From contig NZ_RRCM01000001.1 in the NCBI RefSeq assembly GCF_003862485.1, positions 1 through 42,945 on the forward strand: a stretch of DNA of 42,945 bases, in the 5' to 3' direction. The notes beneath the pieces were generated by a model. That model worked only from the letters and a program-made list of their open reading frames with translations, did no database searches and had not been told where the DNA came from. This document shows, in pieces, positions 1,468-42,945 of the stretch (its first letter is position 1; each line of letters starts with the position of its first letter). This DNA comes from Lachnoanaerobaculum orale (GTDB lineage Bacteria > Bacillota > Clostridia > Lachnospirales > Lachnospiraceae). The position numbers were made by a program, and so were the translations under genes.

Positions 1468-2328
1468 TTACTTTTGCAAGATATCACCGTCATAAGAGAA
1501 ATATTTACCTGCTGCATTTGCCGCCACATCCGACTTGCTAAAAGTTGCGTGTCCGTACTCTCCAAAATCAAGAGTTATCGTATCCCATGCATTGAAATAT
1601 TCATCACCTAAGTCAAGTATCGGATCTGTTATATCAGACACAGAAGTTTCGGCTATTGCGTCTATAGGCAGTTGTATCTTGCTATTATCATTTACATGAG
1701 TTAGGTCTACTGCTATAGAAAGATTTTTATCATTCATAGTAACGCTTTTTAATTCTGCCCCCGGGGTCATGTGGTCAGGAAGTATCTCATTTACTTTTGC
1801 CACAAGTTCATCGCTTGAGACAGGGGCAACATCACTTGATGCACTTGCCTCATAAGGTTCGCCAGTCTCGGCATTAAAATACTTTTCTTGTAGAAGTGTA
1901 CCTTTTCCGAGTGTTTTTGCGGATACTTCTTCTTTATCTATATGCTCCATAACTCTTACATAAAGCATTCCTGCAGTATTCTGTATACAAGTAGTGGTCT
2001 TTGTCGAAAAGTTGATTATAAAGTGAATTTCGTCGGGCTGCATGAAATTCTTATAGTAGTCAAATGCAAAATCTATAGGATTGGTTGCACTTGTCATTCT
2101 GTTTAGCTTCCACTTACCTGTAGTGTCGTCATTTACACGCATCGGGTCGTCAAGACTGTATTCCTTTTTCATCTCTTCTTTCTTATTTGTAGCCTCTGTG
2201 GTAGCGGCTTCAGAAGTTGCCTCGCTACTTGTTACAGTAGTGTCGGTAGTACTCTCATTAGATGCAGCAGCTCCGCCACATCCTGTAAGCACCATGGCCA
2301 TAGCCACGGCTATCAATTCTTTTTTCAT
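1468..2328 (-). CDS. Prophage-encoded lipoprotein
   Basis: The 286-aa protein begins with a short basic N terminus, a hydrophobic stretch and the lipobox LTGC, so it should be lipid-anchored on the outer face of the membrane. A low-complexity Ser/Thr/Ala/Glu linker (about residues 23-55) follows and then a globular region of no recognised family. The ATG at 2328 is chosen because GGAGG lies just upstream; a TTG four codons earlier would overlap that site. It is transcribed on its own between integrase and immunity genes, the typical place for a cargo gene that changes the lysogen. Its promoter shares -35 bases with the divergent promoter at 2368. Confidence 0.8.
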   Translation of the reverse strand: MKKELIAVAMAMVLTGCGGAAASNESTTDTTVTSSEATSEAATTEATNKKEEMKKEYSLDDPMRVNDDTTGKWKLNRMTSATNPIDFAFDYYKNFMQPDEIHFIINFSTKTTTCIQNTAGMLYVRVMEHIDKEEVSAKTLGKGTLLQEKYFNAETGEPYEASASSDVAPVSSDELVAKVNEILPDHMTPGAELKSVTMNDKNLSIAVDLTHVNDNSKIQLPIDAIAETSVSDITDPILDLGDEYFNAWDTITLDFGEYGHATFSKSDVAANAAGKYFSYDGDILQK

Positions 2329-15887: not shown

Positions 15888-15916
15888 AAAGCGCCCTATG
15901 AGCAAGGGCGCTTTTT
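15888..15916 (+). terminator. Strong terminator before packaging genes
   Basis: AGCGCCC (15890-15896) pairs with GGGCGCT (15906-15912), extended by A-T pairs, and runs into TTTTT. It closes the early operon or gates the late one. Confidence 0.8.
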
Positions 15917-15941
15917 GTTGTATAAAAGTGGAGGTACAAAG

Positions 15942-16331
15942 ATGATATATAAAAGATGCTCGCATTGTGGACAAAGATACGAGGCGGGAAAAAAATGCGG
16001 GTGTAATTTTAAAAGGGACTACCCGCAGCCGACGGGAACAAGGGCGCTATATAAAGGCGGTAGGTGGCAAGCACTACGCAAGGTCATAATAGCAAGGTAT
16101 CAAGGTTTAGATCCTTGGGCTTTTTTGCATGGCCGAATTGAATACGCTACTACTGTACATCATATAGTCACGGCAGAGGACGACCCTACACTCTTCTACG
16201 TAGAAGATAATCTGATACCCTTGTCAAGGTCAAGTCATGATGAAATTCATGCGCTGTACAGAAAGAGTGAGGCAAGCAAGGTAGAGACACAAGCTTTGCT
16301 TAGAAGTTTAGTGAAAAAGATAGCATACTAA
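15942..16331 (+). CDS. HNH endonuclease
   Basis: 129 aa from the ATG preceded by GGAGG. Two Cys pairs near the N terminus (C6xxC9, C19xC21) suggest a structural zinc. The HNH core is VHHI (72-75), Asn90 in EDNLIPL and His99/His103. HNH proteins next to the terminase take part in cos cleavage and packaging in many HK97-type phages, which matches its place directly upstream of TerS. Confidence 0.9.
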   Translation: MIYKRCSHCGQRYEAGKKCGCNFKRDYPQPTGTRALYKGGRWQALRKVIIARYQGLDPWAFLHGRIEYATTVHHIVTAEDDPTLFYVEDNLIPLSRSSHDEIHALYRKSEASKVETQALLRSLVKKIAY

Positions 16332-16488: not shown

Positions 16489-16968
16489 ATGGGTAGGCCG
16501 AGAAAAATAATATCGATGCAAACTGGCAATATAAAAAAGGATGTCAGGGCAAAAAGAGAATATGAAGAGTCATTAATTAAGACCGAGGGGGACGAACTTG
16601 ACAAAGTGCCCACTTCGGTCTTTTTAGATGCTACAGCCAAAAAGGAATATGGGCGAATAAAGAAAAATTTGGAGAGCATCGACATAATAGGCAATTTAGA
16701 CCGTAATGCAATGATTGTCTATGCCAATGCTTACTCTATGTACTTGCAGGCGCTAAAGGAGACCAAGAAAAAGGATTTCACTCCGACGGTGAAGACAAGC
16801 TCAGGCGAAAAGCCTAACCCCATCTATGCAATCCTTGAGCAGGCAAAGAAAGATATGGAGACCTCCGGCAATGCCCTTGGAATGTCTGCAAGTTCAAGGC
16901 TGAAGATTGCAGCAGAAAAGGCAAAAGGACAAGAGGAAAACCTCGTGCAGATGTTCGGGGATATATAG
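16489..16968 (+). CDS. terS: Terminase small subunit (P27 family)
   Basis: 159 aa starting MGRPRK, with the central pattern of P27-type small terminases (DATAKKEYGRIKKNLE, GNLDRNAMIVYANAYSMYLQA) and a C-terminal SASSRLKIAAEKAK. It recognises phage DNA and loads the large subunit for packaging. AAGGAGGG precedes the ATG, and TerL begins just after. Confidence 0.92.
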   Translation: MGRPRKIISMQTGNIKKDVRAKREYEESLIKTEGDELDKVPTSVFLDATAKKEYGRIKKNLESIDIIGNLDRNAMIVYANAYSMYLQALKETKKKDFTPTVKTSSGEKPNPIYAILEQAKKDMETSGNALGMSASSRLKIAAEKAKGQEENLVQMFGDI

Positions 16969-16970
16969 AT

Positions 16971-17591
16971 ATGAGTCACTTAGAGGATATAAAGCAATAC
17001 GCAAGGAGCTGTTTAGCGGATGAAATCCCGTCAGGGCAAAAGCACAAGTGGGCATGTCAAAGATTTCTTGACGACTTGGAAAGAGTAGGCACAGCCGACT
17101 TTCCTTATATTTGGAGTGAAGACAATGCAAACAAAATTGTCGCATGGTTCGCTTTGCTGAGACATTCAAAGGGTGCTTTAGCAGGTAAGCCGATAGATTT
17201 AACTATGTGGCAAAAGTTCAGAGCTTGCCAGCTGTATGGTTGGGTACACAGAGAGACGGGAAAGAAGAGATTTAAAAAGAGTTTTACCGAAGTTGGGAGA
17301 AAAAATGCAAAATCTCAAATGGAAGCAGGCGAAGCGCTCTATGAAATAGCCATACAGGCTACAAAAAACATGGAGACATACGAAGTATACACTGCAGGTA
17401 CGAAGAGAGAGCAGTCAAAAATTGTATTTAATGAGTGCAACTTGATGACTAAAGGCTCAATACTGCGGTCAAAATTCAATTTCAAGCGTGACGAAATCGT
17501 GCATATAAAAACAGGTTCCTTCATAAAACCACTATCGAAAGAGGATGGTAAGACGGGAGATGGCACTAACCCTGCATGCTTGATACTCGAT
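16971..17591 (+). CDS. terL: Terminase large subunit, exon 1
   Basis: 207 codons encoding the N-terminal ATPase part of a phage lambda/HK97-type TerL. The Walker A-like loop is GRKNAKS (109-115) and the exon ends LILD, the start of Walker B. Without splicing the frame runs 21 codons into the intron and stops at 17654. Joined to 18798 it reads LILD-EYHQHPTT, restoring the Walker B Asp plus catalytic Glu. The full spliced protein would be 579 aa, normal for the family. Confidence 0.9.
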
Positions 17592-18797
17592 AGAGATTTG
17601 TCGAGTATAAATCGAGGTGCATCGGTGAAGGCTAAAAACCATATATTGAAATAATAGATTGAGAGTGTTATAATATATAAAGAGGTGATTATATGAAATC
17701 TGGAATATATATTATTAAAAACACTTATGACGGAAAAGTTTACATAGGACAAAGCGTTGATGTAAAACGCAGATTAAGGACTCATAAAAGGCTCCTTAAT
17801 TTAGGAATTCATAAAAACACATACTTACAAAATGCATTTAATCTATACAAGGAGCACATAGATTTTCAAACTATTGAATTGTGCGATGTAGATGCTTTAA
17901 ATAAAAGAGAACAGTATTGGATTAGGAAATTCGATTCTACAAACAGAGCAAAGGGATACAACCGTGAGAGCGGTGGCTCAGAAGGCCAGAAATGGTGCGA
18001 AGAGTCGAAAGAAGCAAGAAAAGGCGAAGGAAATCCAATGTTTGGTAAGCATCAGTCGACAGAGTTTATTGAATGGATAAGAATGCACAACAGGGCGAGT
18101 AGTGATAAATTAACCGTAAACGATGTTGAGAATATCAAAGTAGCATTAACCAAGGGAGTTAGACAAGCGGAGCTTGCAAAGGAATACAATGTTACTATTT
18201 CAACGGTAAACAAGATAGCTTCGGCTAAAAATTGGAGTTGGGTTTTACCTGAATTGAATGCTGATATCAAAAAAAACATTGAGGGTGAGAGGAAAAAGAA
18301 AAAAGAAGAGATTGCAGAGAAAAAAGCAATTTTTTTGAAAAACGAAGAGGAGCGAAAAAACATAATAAAAAATGTTAGAAGCGACTTTGAAAAAGGAATT
18401 CCTAAAAATGAAATAATGAAAAAATATGGAATATCTAGTACAAGCTATGTGAGGTATACAACAGACCTTTTTAACAAACATAAAGAAAAACTTGTAAAAT
18501 TGTGCCTTGAAAAAAGGGCTAATGGTATGCAGGTTAAAGACATAGCTAAAGAACTAGGATTACATAGAACTACCGTCACAGAATATTGCAAAATGGTTCA
18601 TGTTAATACCGAGAGTGCAGCAATCAACTGCATTTGTAACGACTAGTAGGTGAGCGTTAAGAGAGCAATAATCCTACCAAGAGCCCTCGACACATTAGAG
18701 CATCCGACAAGGGTGCTTTTTTAATGTGAAAATATAGTCTGAACTTATAGGAAACTATAAGAATTATCGGATAAAGAGCCGATAAGATAACAAATTG
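17592..18797 (+). mobile_element. Group I intron in terL with homing endonuclease
   Basis: The 1206-base insertion has group I features. P1 pairs the 5' exon end (17583-17591) with 17600-17608, finishing in the diagnostic U-G wobble at the splice site. P7 can form between GACTA (18641-18645) and TAGTC (18735-18739). A P9-like hairpin closes with GAAA (18744-18761), and the intron ends in G18797. Removing exactly this segment restores the terL frame. The internal ORF is a GIY-YIG endonuclease. Confidence 0.88.
17693..18646 (+). CDS. GIY-YIG homing endonuclease
   Basis: 317 aa. The GIY-YIG catalytic domain spans about 3-95 (GIYIIKNTYDGKVYIGQS, Arg27 region, Glu near 73, N-containing GYNRESGG), followed by a NUMOD3-type segment (GEGNPMFGKH) and at least two helix-turn-helix units (RQAELAKEYNVTISTVNKIA; MQVKDIAKELGLHRTTVTEY) for long-site DNA recognition. 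It would cut intronless terL and drive intron spread. GAGGTG precedes the ATG. Its stop codon lies inside the intron's P7 strand. Confidence 0.92.
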   Translation: MKSGIYIIKNTYDGKVYIGQSVDVKRRLRTHKRLLNLGIHKNTYLQNAFNLYKEHIDFQTIELCDVDALNKREQYWIRKFDSTNRAKGYNRESGGSEGQKWCEESKEARKGEGNPMFGKHQSTEFIEWIRMHNRASSDKLTVNDVENIKVALTKGVRQAELAKEYNVTISTVNKIASAKNWSWVLPELNADIKKNIEGERKKKKEEIAEKKAIFLKNEEERKNIIKNVRSDFEKGIPKNEIMKKYGISSTSYVRYTTDLFNKHKEKLVKLCLEKRANGMQVKDIAKELGLHRTTVTEYCKMVHVNTESAAINCICND

Positions 18798-19916
18798 GAA
18801 TACCACCAACACCCGACCACCGATTTTTACGACCTTGGACTTGGCTCAAACACCAAGGAGCCAATGCTTACGATAATCACCACAGCGGGTAAGGATTTAA
18901 CTTATCCTTGCTACACGCAAGAGTACGATTATTGCTCAAAGGTCTTAGATCCTGATGTAGACGTAAAAAATGATGAATATTTTATTGATATTTGCGAAGC
19001 TGATAAGGGTGACGATTCTGGAGCATTGGAAACGTGGCAAAAAGCAAACCCGATAAGGGCTTTTTATGAAGAAGGTGTAAAAAAGATAGCTGAAGATTAT
19101 GAGATAGCCAAGCAAATACCTGAAAAAATGATAGCTTTCATGACTAAAGTCTTAAATATTTGGGTATCGGCTGCAAACAACGGCTACATGGATATGAAAA
19201 AATGGAAAGCTTGCGAAGTCAAGGAGTTCCCTATCGACCTAAGAGGGCGACCAGTGTACGTCGGTTTTGATATGTCGTCAAAAATCGACCTTACATCGGT
19301 CGCCTTTGTTGTGCCATTTCAGACCGATAAACTGGACAGTAGTGGCAAGAAGATAGTCAATTATGCAGTGTGGACACATAGCTTTATCCCGACAGTGGAC
19401 AAGCTGAGAGAACACATCATAAAAGATAAGGTACCGTATGACGCTTGGGAGCGTTTGGGATACTTGACGCTGACGAATACGCCGATTGTCGACCAAGCGA
19501 CTGTAATGCGTTACGTCCTTGATGAATGCGAAAAATATCAACTTGATATACAGTGCTTGTGTTTCGACCCCGCAAATGCTTCAAAATTGATGATGGACTT
19601 ATCAGATGAGGGATACACAGTCGAAGAAGTTTATCAAAGCCATAAGAGTTTAAATGAGTCTACTCAAGGATTTAGGGAGCAAGTTTATTCGGGCAATGTG
19701 GTTTACTTACATAACCCTTTATTTAATTATGCGATGTCTAATGCAGTCATAAGGACAAATAACGGCTTGATAAAGATTGACAAAGACGCAACTACTAAGC
19801 GAATCGACCCCGTAGATGCTACTTTGGGAGCGTTTAAATTAGCTTTATATCACGATTTCGAGTCAGAAAGCTATAACGAATACATAGAGAATTTTTTGAA
19901 AGGAATGACAGGTTAA
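18798..19916 (+). CDS. terL: Terminase large subunit, exon 2
   Basis: 372 codons beginning EYHQHPTTDFYDLGLGSN, the motif that follows Walker B in this TerL family, and a coupling motif ITTAG. The C-terminal part carries the RNase-H-like nuclease (GFDMSSKIDLTSVAF with its Asp, FDPANA, and RIDPVDATLGAF), which cuts concatemers during headful or cos packaging. No ribosome site precedes it, so it depends on splicing. The portal gene starts one base after its stop. Confidence 0.92.
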   Translation, partial: EYHQHPTTDFYDLGLGSNTKEPMLTIITTAGKDLTYPCYTQEYDYCSKVLDPDVDVKNDEYFIDICEADKGDDSGALETWQKANPIRAFYEEGVKKIAEDYEIAKQIPEKMIAFMTKVLNIWVSAANNGYMDMKKWKACEVKEFPIDLRGRPVYVGFDMSSKIDLTSVAFVVPFQTDKLDSSGKKIVNYAVWTHSFIPTVDKLREHIIKDKVPYDAWERLGYLTLTNTPIVDQATVMRYVLDECEKYQLDIQCLCFDPANASKLMMDLSDEGYTVEEVYQSHKSLNESTQGFREQVYSGNVVYLHNPLFNYAMSNAVIRTNNGLIKIDKDATTKRIDPVDATLGAFKLALYHDFESESYNEYIENFLKGMTG

Positions 19917-40160: not shown

Positions 40161-41862
<1,702 letters not shown>

Positions 41863-41979
41863 ATTGGTGTCGATGCGTCTAGGGGATACACCCGTTCCCA
41901 TTCCGAACACGATGGTTAAGACCTGGTCGGCCGATGGTACTATACTGGAGACGGTATGGGAGAGTAGGTGGATGCCAAT
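41863..41979 (+). rRNA. rrf: 5S ribosomal RNA
   Basis: About 117 bases with terminal pairing ATTGG/CCAAT and the conserved CCCGTTCCCATTCCGAACAC. It is located between 16S and 23S instead of after 23S, an order known in some Lachnospiraceae and other Clostridia. Confidence 0.88.
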
Positions 41980-41983
41980 TTAT

Positions 41984-42056
41984 GGGGGTGTAGCTCAGTT
42001 GGGAGAGCACCTGCCTTGCAAGCAGGGGGTCAAGAGTTCGAATCTCTCCATCTCCA
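41984..42056 (+). tRNA. tRNA-Ala (TGC)
   Basis: GGGGGTG pairs with CATCTCC and includes the G3-U70 identity pair of alanine tRNA. The anticodon loop CTTGCAA gives TGC. The discriminator is A and no CCA is encoded. It lies in the rRNA spacer. Confidence 0.96.
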
Positions 42057-42261
42057 TAGTTAAAGCTTGAAAGCTTTAACTATAAATGTACCTTGAAAAC
42101 TGCATACCAAACGAGAAATTATATAAATATTTTATAATTAGACATCCGAGGTATCAATTACTTTAAAGTGATTGATATTTAATAACAAAAAATAAATTTT
42201 TAAACATAGTGTATGATACACGCTAGTGTCATACAAAACACTAAATCTAAAAGATTTAAGA
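42057..42261 (+). other. Spacer before 23S rRNA
   Basis: 205 bases with no gene. It starts with a hairpin TTAAAGCTTgaAAGCTTTAA (42060-42079). Bases 42092-42111 can pair with 68-87 at the other end of the window, and a stretch near 42130-42250 is AT-rich. Confidence 0.5.
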
Positions 42262-42945
42262 GGTTAAACATAAAGAGCGTAGGGTGGATGCCTAGGCACT
42301 GACAGCCGAAGAAAGACGTGACAAGCTGCGAAAAGCTGCGGGGAGAAGCACATATTCAGTGATCCGCAGATGTCTGAATGGGGAAACCCACTTGGATAAA
42401 CTCCAAGTATCTGTACGCCAATACATAACGTACAGAGGGGAACCCGGTGAACTGAAACATCTAAGTAGCCGGAGGAAAAGAAAACAACAGTGATTGCGAA
42501 AGTAGCGGCGAGCGAAATCGTAAGAGCCCAAACCGTGGTGCGTGCACTGCGGGGTAGAGGACTGCAATACGAGTAAGATATATTACCTGAACCGTTTTGG
42601 AAAAGCGGGCCAAAGAGCGTGAGAGCCGTGTAAGGGAAAATGTATTGAATCCAGCAGTATCCGGAGTACCACGAGACACGAGAAACCTTGTGGGAAGCAG
42701 GGGGGACCACCCCCCAAGGCTAAATACTAGTCAGTGACCGATAGCGTATAGTACTGTGAAGGAAAGGTGAAAAGAACCCCGGGAGGGGAGTGAAAAAGAA
42801 CCTGAAACCCTATGTTTACAAACTGTGGAACACCGAAAGGTGAACCGCGTACTTTTTGTAGAACGGTCCGGCGAGTTACATGTACAGGCGAGGTTAAGTA
42901 TTAAAGATACGGAGCCGAAGGGAAACCAAGTCTTAATAGGGCGAT
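42262..42945 (+). rRNA. rrl: 23S ribosomal RNA, 5' part
   Basis: It starts at GGTTAAACATAAAGAGCG and contains the conserved GGTGGATGCCTAGGCACT. About 684 bases are present and the gene runs off the right edge. Confidence 0.95.

Follow-up and report, generated by a model that had tools for sequence, protein, structure and literature searches.

Architecture of the interrupted terL gene

The window (the whole stretch of DNA that was analysed, 42,945 nucleotides from Lachnoanaerobaculum orale) carries phage genes that lie inward from a tRNA gene (132-204) at one end and an rRNA operon (40161-42945; 16S, 5S, tRNA, and the start of 23S) at the other. An HNH endonuclease gene (15915-16331) stands directly upstream of the small terminase gene (16489-16968), and an HNH gene beside the small terminase gene is the arrangement of many cos-type phages. 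The large terminase gene, terL, is present in two parts, separated by an insert that holds a gene of its own.

16971-17591, + strand: terL 5' exon, 207 amino acids; ATPase domain with Walker A (GRKNA-KS) and Walker B, ending LILD; Pfam PF03354, E = 5.4e-19
17592-18797, + strand: group I intron, 1206 nt, between the Walker B Asp (GAT) and Glu (GAA) codons, junction 17591/18798
17693-18646, + strand: ORF of a GIY-YIG homing endonuclease, 317 amino acids; Pfam PF01541, E = 2.5e-10
18798-19916, + strand: terL 3' exon, nuclease domain, starting EYHQHPTT with the Walker B Glu as first codon; Pfam PF20441, E = 4.2e-33

On the PHROG profile phrog_9, the 5' exon occupies positions 170-327 and the 3' exon positions 328-677, making the two contiguous at the junction; their Pfam domains are TerL_ATPase and TerL_nuclease. 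Both terL frames are open right up to the exact junction. The original prediction had placed a group I intron here on the basis of exon ends reading LILD and EYHQHPTT and of a terminal G in the intron, and all of these are present as described, the last base being G18797. The GC content of the insert is 34%, compared with 41-42% in the exons.

An insertion at such a position might also be an intein, or a programmed frameshift or bypass instead of RNA splicing, and TerL inteins at both Walker A and Walker B are described in the accessible text of PMC5050341. Against this, the frame leaving the 5' exon meets an in-frame TAA at 17652-17654, 20 codons inside the insert, and the inner ORF begins at a start codon of its own and is joined in frame to neither exon. 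Furthermore, no intein domain is found among the matches listed for the ORF, which cover 25 of 33 Pfam families. We consider this explanation extremely improbable and treat the insert as an intron.

Empty sites and introns at the same site

Scanning viral contigs with the 3' exon yielded 38 loci, in which the two exons were then searched for separately. In 33 of these, terL runs uninterrupted across exactly this junction. The other five comprise two genes interrupted exactly there (L019 and L022), one contig that begins inside the intron (L021), and two that do not extend to the junction (L023 and L037). A pattern scan of genome contigs added one more interrupted gene, L081, from an uncultured Lachnospiraceae bacterium. 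The same-site introns of L019, L022, and L081 are 229 nt long and ORF-less and keep the whole RNA core. The intron of L021 carries the C-terminal part of the ORF, on a contig that shows the 3' junction only.

The exons of L081 and of the intronless locus L018 share 569 of 600 upstream and 565 of 600 downstream bases, indicating that the presence of the intron varies between near-identical genes. Even the nearest sites are only distant relatives of the window exons. A pattern for the 3' splice site matched five viral contigs, three of them those of L019, L022, and L021; the remaining two, L042 and L043, had no terL match and were set aside, as were all but L081 of the 10 matches in genome contigs, the only one with terL.

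Searches with covariance models

A search with the Rfam Intron_gpI model had been suggested as a check of the original prediction. This check was negative: Rfam gave no group I intron match in the whole window at the gathering threshold, nor in the region 17500-18900 at E-values up to 10. We therefore judged the intron by its relatives. For the 3' half, we built a covariance model, R1, from 10 introns, none of them from T4. With R1, the td intron of T4 scores weakly but significantly, at 21.2 bits with an E-value of 0.0021, which is modest and, given a short calibration, rough. Because a model built from relatives finds td, we attribute the Rfam result to the limited reach of its model for IA introns split by an ORF, and not to a failed definition. 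An Rfam search alone overlooks such introns.

R1 also detects introns of Streptococcus thermophilus, S. suis, Listeria, and fecal phages, and finds no match on the intronless loci L016, L018, and L020. In the window, which belongs to the training set, the match spans 18605-18797 at 174.1 bits; elsewhere in the window, R1 returned a chance match alone (E = 1.7). Matches occurred in 5 of 299 genomes of the same family (the own genome, with one copy of the intron, included) and in 9 of 391 genomes of the class.

One fecal phage contig (L094) holds two related introns within 0.75 kb (1385-1563 and 1936-2123). Intron-like matches in three genomes (L099, L100, and L109) are followed by a common downstream sequence, QITQNIKDLLSS (ITQNVKDLLSS), which suggests one common insertion site. 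A related intron also lies at 1506-1681 in the Clostridioides phage pCD1602_4 (L091), a record without annotation, where a different ORF ends 12 bases before the intron 3' half; its 3' exon (EEPLPAGGSCLLGSFNLS) presumably belongs to a ribonucleotide reductase gene, judging by its motif.

Fold of the ribozyme core

The helices P1, P10, P3, P4, P5, P5a, P6, P7, P7.1, P8, P9, and P9.1 were placed by hand.

17583-17591 (exon) with 17600-17608 (guide), + strand: P1, U17591.G17600 at the splice site
17596-17599, + strand: P10 5' half, with its 3' exon partner at 18798-18801; 4 pairs (in L022, all 5 typed pairs form)
17612-17617, + strand: P3 5' strand, pairing with 18685-18690; two-sided changes in 4 of 6 pairs
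17622-17626, + strand: P4 5' strand, pairing with 18608-18612 inside the ORF; invariant in the alignment
17637-17642, + strand: possible P5a 5' strand (tentative), pairing with 18593-18598 inside the ORF
18604-18612, + strand: J5/4 and P4 3' strand, the conserved UAAUACCGA, containing UAA
18613-18620 with 18628-18635, + strand: P6, fold and covariation
18641-18645, + strand: P7 5' strand, pairing with 18735-18739; two-sided changes in 2 of 5 pairs
18646-18650 with 18673-18677, + strand: P7.1, two-sided changes in 5 of 5 pairs
18691-18697 with 18722-18728, + strand: P8, fold and covariation
18744-18761, + strand: P9, fold and covariation
18764-18785, + strand: P9.1, fold and covariation

The P1 helix, claimed earlier with a closing U.G at 17591/17600, forms all nine of its pairs. 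Taken alone, P1 is a weaker signal than it seems: with G.U pairs counted, the guide finds a 9/9 partner at 15 positions on the window's + strand, and 2 of 35 intronless alleles also pair 9/9 with it. The T before the 5' splice site is also found in L019, L022, and L081. Between the window and L022, two pairs in P1, one in P10, and three in P3 differ by two-sided changes; in P1 and P10, differences in the final codons of the 5' exon and in the opening codon of the 3' exon are thus matched by differences in their intron partners.

We aligned the cores of eight introns (the window without the ORF middle, L019, L022, L081, L021, L089, L090, and L077) and took 50 pairs into a covariation test, with P1, P5, P5a, and P10 left out. 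In this alignment, 95.8% of 383 cells are paired, a count that overstates independent events through its close-kin rows (L019/L022/L081 and L089/L090); 31 of the 50 pairs show two-sided changes, and the covariation score is 0.528. Shuffling gave means of 76.9% paired, 15.9 two-sided pairs, and a score of 0.176, with none of 500 shuffles as high on any of the three measures, for alignments made and a structure drawn by the same analyst on these same sequences. Control structures slid along the alignment were only 31.7-43.6% paired. Similarly, 10 aligned 3' halves were 97.0% paired, with two-sided changes in 23 of 34 pairs.

Every alignment cell of P3 and P7 is paired. P4 is invariant throughout, as are three of the five P7 pairs, and covariation thus neither supports nor opposes P4. 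P5 (three pairs) and P5a are weakly supported. The original prediction was to be abandoned if no P3-P8 fold could form around the proposed P7; P3, P7, and P8 all form. Additional helices P7.1 and P7.2 between P7 and P3' are a feature of subgroup IA; of the two, P7.1 alone is supported here, and the intron probably belongs to this subgroup.

These data bear on two further explanations. In the first, a free-standing homing endonuclease gene would have entered terL without a working ribozyme. Such GIY-YIG genes are common in phages, and the absence of an Rfam intron match would fit this picture, but three insertions at the same site have no ORF and yet possess a whole RNA core, and the pairs of that core covary. 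We regard a free-standing gene as extremely improbable as well.

The second explanation accepts a group I intron but holds that it no longer splices, leaving terL simply broken in a decaying prophage. An ORF grown into the core could disturb folding, and a recent loss of function is compatible with the comparison, the window exons being as distant from the nearest sites as they are. The core helices are nonetheless all intact, with pairing kept through two-sided changes, both exon frames remain open to the exact junction, and the nuclease keeps its catalytic residues. A dead intron of this kind is, in our estimation, very unlikely, if somewhat less so than the alternatives above.

The endonuclease gene and its overlap with the core

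The ORF encodes a GIY-YIG domain, a NUMOD3 motif, and helix-turn-helix segments, and its end lies within the ribozyme core. Structures of the I-TevI catalytic domain (1LN0/1MK0) match the protein with an E-value of 1.8e-11. The residues Tyr-6, Tyr-17, Arg-27, Glu-73, and Asn-90 are present, which we take to be the catalytic Tyr, Tyr, Arg, Glu, and Asn with the roles they have in I-TevI. The PHROG relatives of the ORF are homing endonucleases (phrog_7168 and phrog_314). A search of viral contigs for close relatives of the endonuclease gave 48 pattern-matching stretches, of which none was confirmed.

It had been claimed that the endonuclease stop codon lies inside the P7 strand. The stop codon does touch P7: in the TAG at 18644-18646, two bases close the P7 5' strand and the third opens P7.1. 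Gene and core share more sequence than that claim implied, however, as the ORF runs past the UAA of J5/4 via P4', P6, and J6/7. The nuclease ORFs of L021 and of L075, the terL intron of Staphylococcus phage vB_SauS_IMEP5, end at the UAA of the conserved J5/4 and P4' sequence. In the window, the same UAA (18604-18606) is out of the ORF frame, and 13 more codons are read before the stop in P7. From residue 301, the last one aligned to L021, to this UAA there are eight bases in the window versus nine in L021; on these sequences, the extension seems to have come about by a change of frame rather than by loss of the stop codon. The frame-changing base may also be a sequencing error.

Deep overlap of this kind has a precedent in T4, where the UAA stop codon of I-TevI stands directly before the CGACUA of P7. 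According to the accessible text of PMC3073962, the last 20 nt of I-TevI form parts of P6a, P6, and P7, and "core creep", the lengthening of intron genes into the ribozyme after invasion, is described there with other cases of overlap. An ORF that reads on past the J5/4 UAA would agree with the core-creep prediction.

Promoter- and terminator-like sites around the endonuclease gene

Two further sites lie on either side of the endonuclease ORF.

17646-17674, + strand: putative promoter-like site, hexamers TTGAAA and TATAAT 17 bases apart, the second preceded by TG; 11 of 12 bases agree with the consensus
18697-18719, + strand: terminator-like hairpin with T-run, within P8; -11.2 kcal/mol, 0 of 20 shuffles as strong

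The scan for promoter-like sites found seven where 4.3 were expected. The IMEP5 endonuclease gene is preceded by a similar TG-n-TATAAT and a AGAGGTGAT leader. A leader pattern combining both endonuclease genes had no match in the window because the spacing there differs by one base, and TGNTATAAT alone occurs four times versus 2.63 expected, which leaves the promoter as a lead only.

The hairpin is found in the ORF-bearing introns at this site (the window and L021, the latter at -10.0 kcal/mol, a value that 3 of 20 shuffles reach) and is absent from the three ORF-less introns at the same site, which are close kin. Over 20 related introns, a hairpin of -8 kcal/mol or stronger occurs in the 3' half of eight, among them three of seven labelled ORF-bearing and four of 10 labelled ORF-less, and the td intron has no terminator-like hairpin. 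A general link between hairpin and ORF was thus not borne out. We consider it unlikely that the endonuclease gene is a complete transcription unit inside the ribozyme, with its own promoter, a coding end serving as P4', P6, and part of P7, and a terminator in P8. If it were, core folding would be in competition with transcript termination for shared bases, and the intron might yield nuclease RNA in the lysogen and undergo splicing in the late operon.

A probable mobile intron in the packaging motor gene

Together, the empty sites, the related introns at the same site, and the compensatory changes bear out a group I intron that separates the Asp codon of the terL Walker B motif from the Glu codon. 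Our main reading is that a mobile group I intron sits in the Walker B codons of a prophage terL, to which we assign a probability of roughly 0.94. Its insertion site, the empty sites, the same-site introns with and without an ORF, the conserved core, and the nuclease's catalytic residues are established at the level of sequence comparison; from them we infer splicing, cutting, homing, and a need for splicing in phage growth.

In the mechanism we propose, the intron RNA would fold in the late transcript and take up guanosine at P7, the RNA would be cut after U17591 in the U.G pair of P1, and the exons would be joined at G18797 with the aid of P10, restoring a continuous terL message. The ORF in the P5/P5a loop supplies the GIY-YIG protein, which would cleave terL alleles that lack the intron close to this junction; during repair, the intron would be copied into the cut allele.

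The unchangeable Asp-Glu codon pair of the motor is a dependable target. As the intron occupies this catalytic pair of the packaging motor, there would be no working motor without exact splicing. terL is regarded as an essential gene, and precise removal of the intron would presumably be required for phage growth, as the original prediction also held. Where phage records annotate terL in separate pieces, the cause can be an intron.

Comparison with known systems

Among the closest known systems is td/I-TevI of T4 (group IA), where a conserved phage gene likewise harbors a group I intron with a GIY-YIG nuclease of related catalytic domain. The host gene differs, and the ORF leaves the core at P6 in td, whereas it does so at P5/P5a here. 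In addition, the DNA-binding part in the window has NUMOD3 and helix-turn-helix matches, and the overlap with the core extends from P5a to P7.

Group I introns in terL are known from Bastillevirinae. The accessible text of PMC11878797 reports splicing of SIOphi TerL in vitro and splicing in vivo for all tested fragments, the phiAGATE terminase included. These phages belong to another group, and the four terL intron genes listed there are of HNH/VSR type (PMC11878797).

Another parallel is the terL intron of phage IMEP5, which has a related core (139.4 bits with R1, as a member of the model's training set) and a GIY-YIG protein with 30.6% identity to that of the window over 78%. It too interrupts a catalytic motif of terL, but at Walker A (ARKQG|KS) instead of Walker B. 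S. thermophilus phages 2972 and P4761 have a related core (R1, 86-87 bits) and a terL annotated in two pieces; their introns lie farther downstream, about 196 codons before the end of TerL, and the intron end region has no ORF of at least 60 codons. A further related intron, L105 (3' half at 1501-1720, minus strand), is apparently located in terL just after Walker A, as judged by the motifs GKKNGKS and TKKDQA on its two sides.

The mycobacteriophage TerL inteins, mobile and self-splicing at Walker A (Lys|Thr) and Walker B in the accessible text of PMC5050341, differ in using protein splicing rather than RNA splicing and in residing in other phages. A review, in its accessible text, notes that residues critical for function are often encoded at homing sites, and it counts terminases among phage targets (PMC3984707). 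The choice of a Walker B site is not unusual for such elements.

A full-text search of a licence-limited library found no published Walker B intron in phage terL; the texts cited do already describe terL introns of group I as well as inteins at Walker motifs of TerL. In view of the TerL inteins and the introns of IMEP5, the S. thermophilus phages, and L105, the kind of element and the choice of gene are known or nearby. The new detail is the overlap of gene and core in the window relative to L021 and L075, which together offer a natural comparison for core creep.
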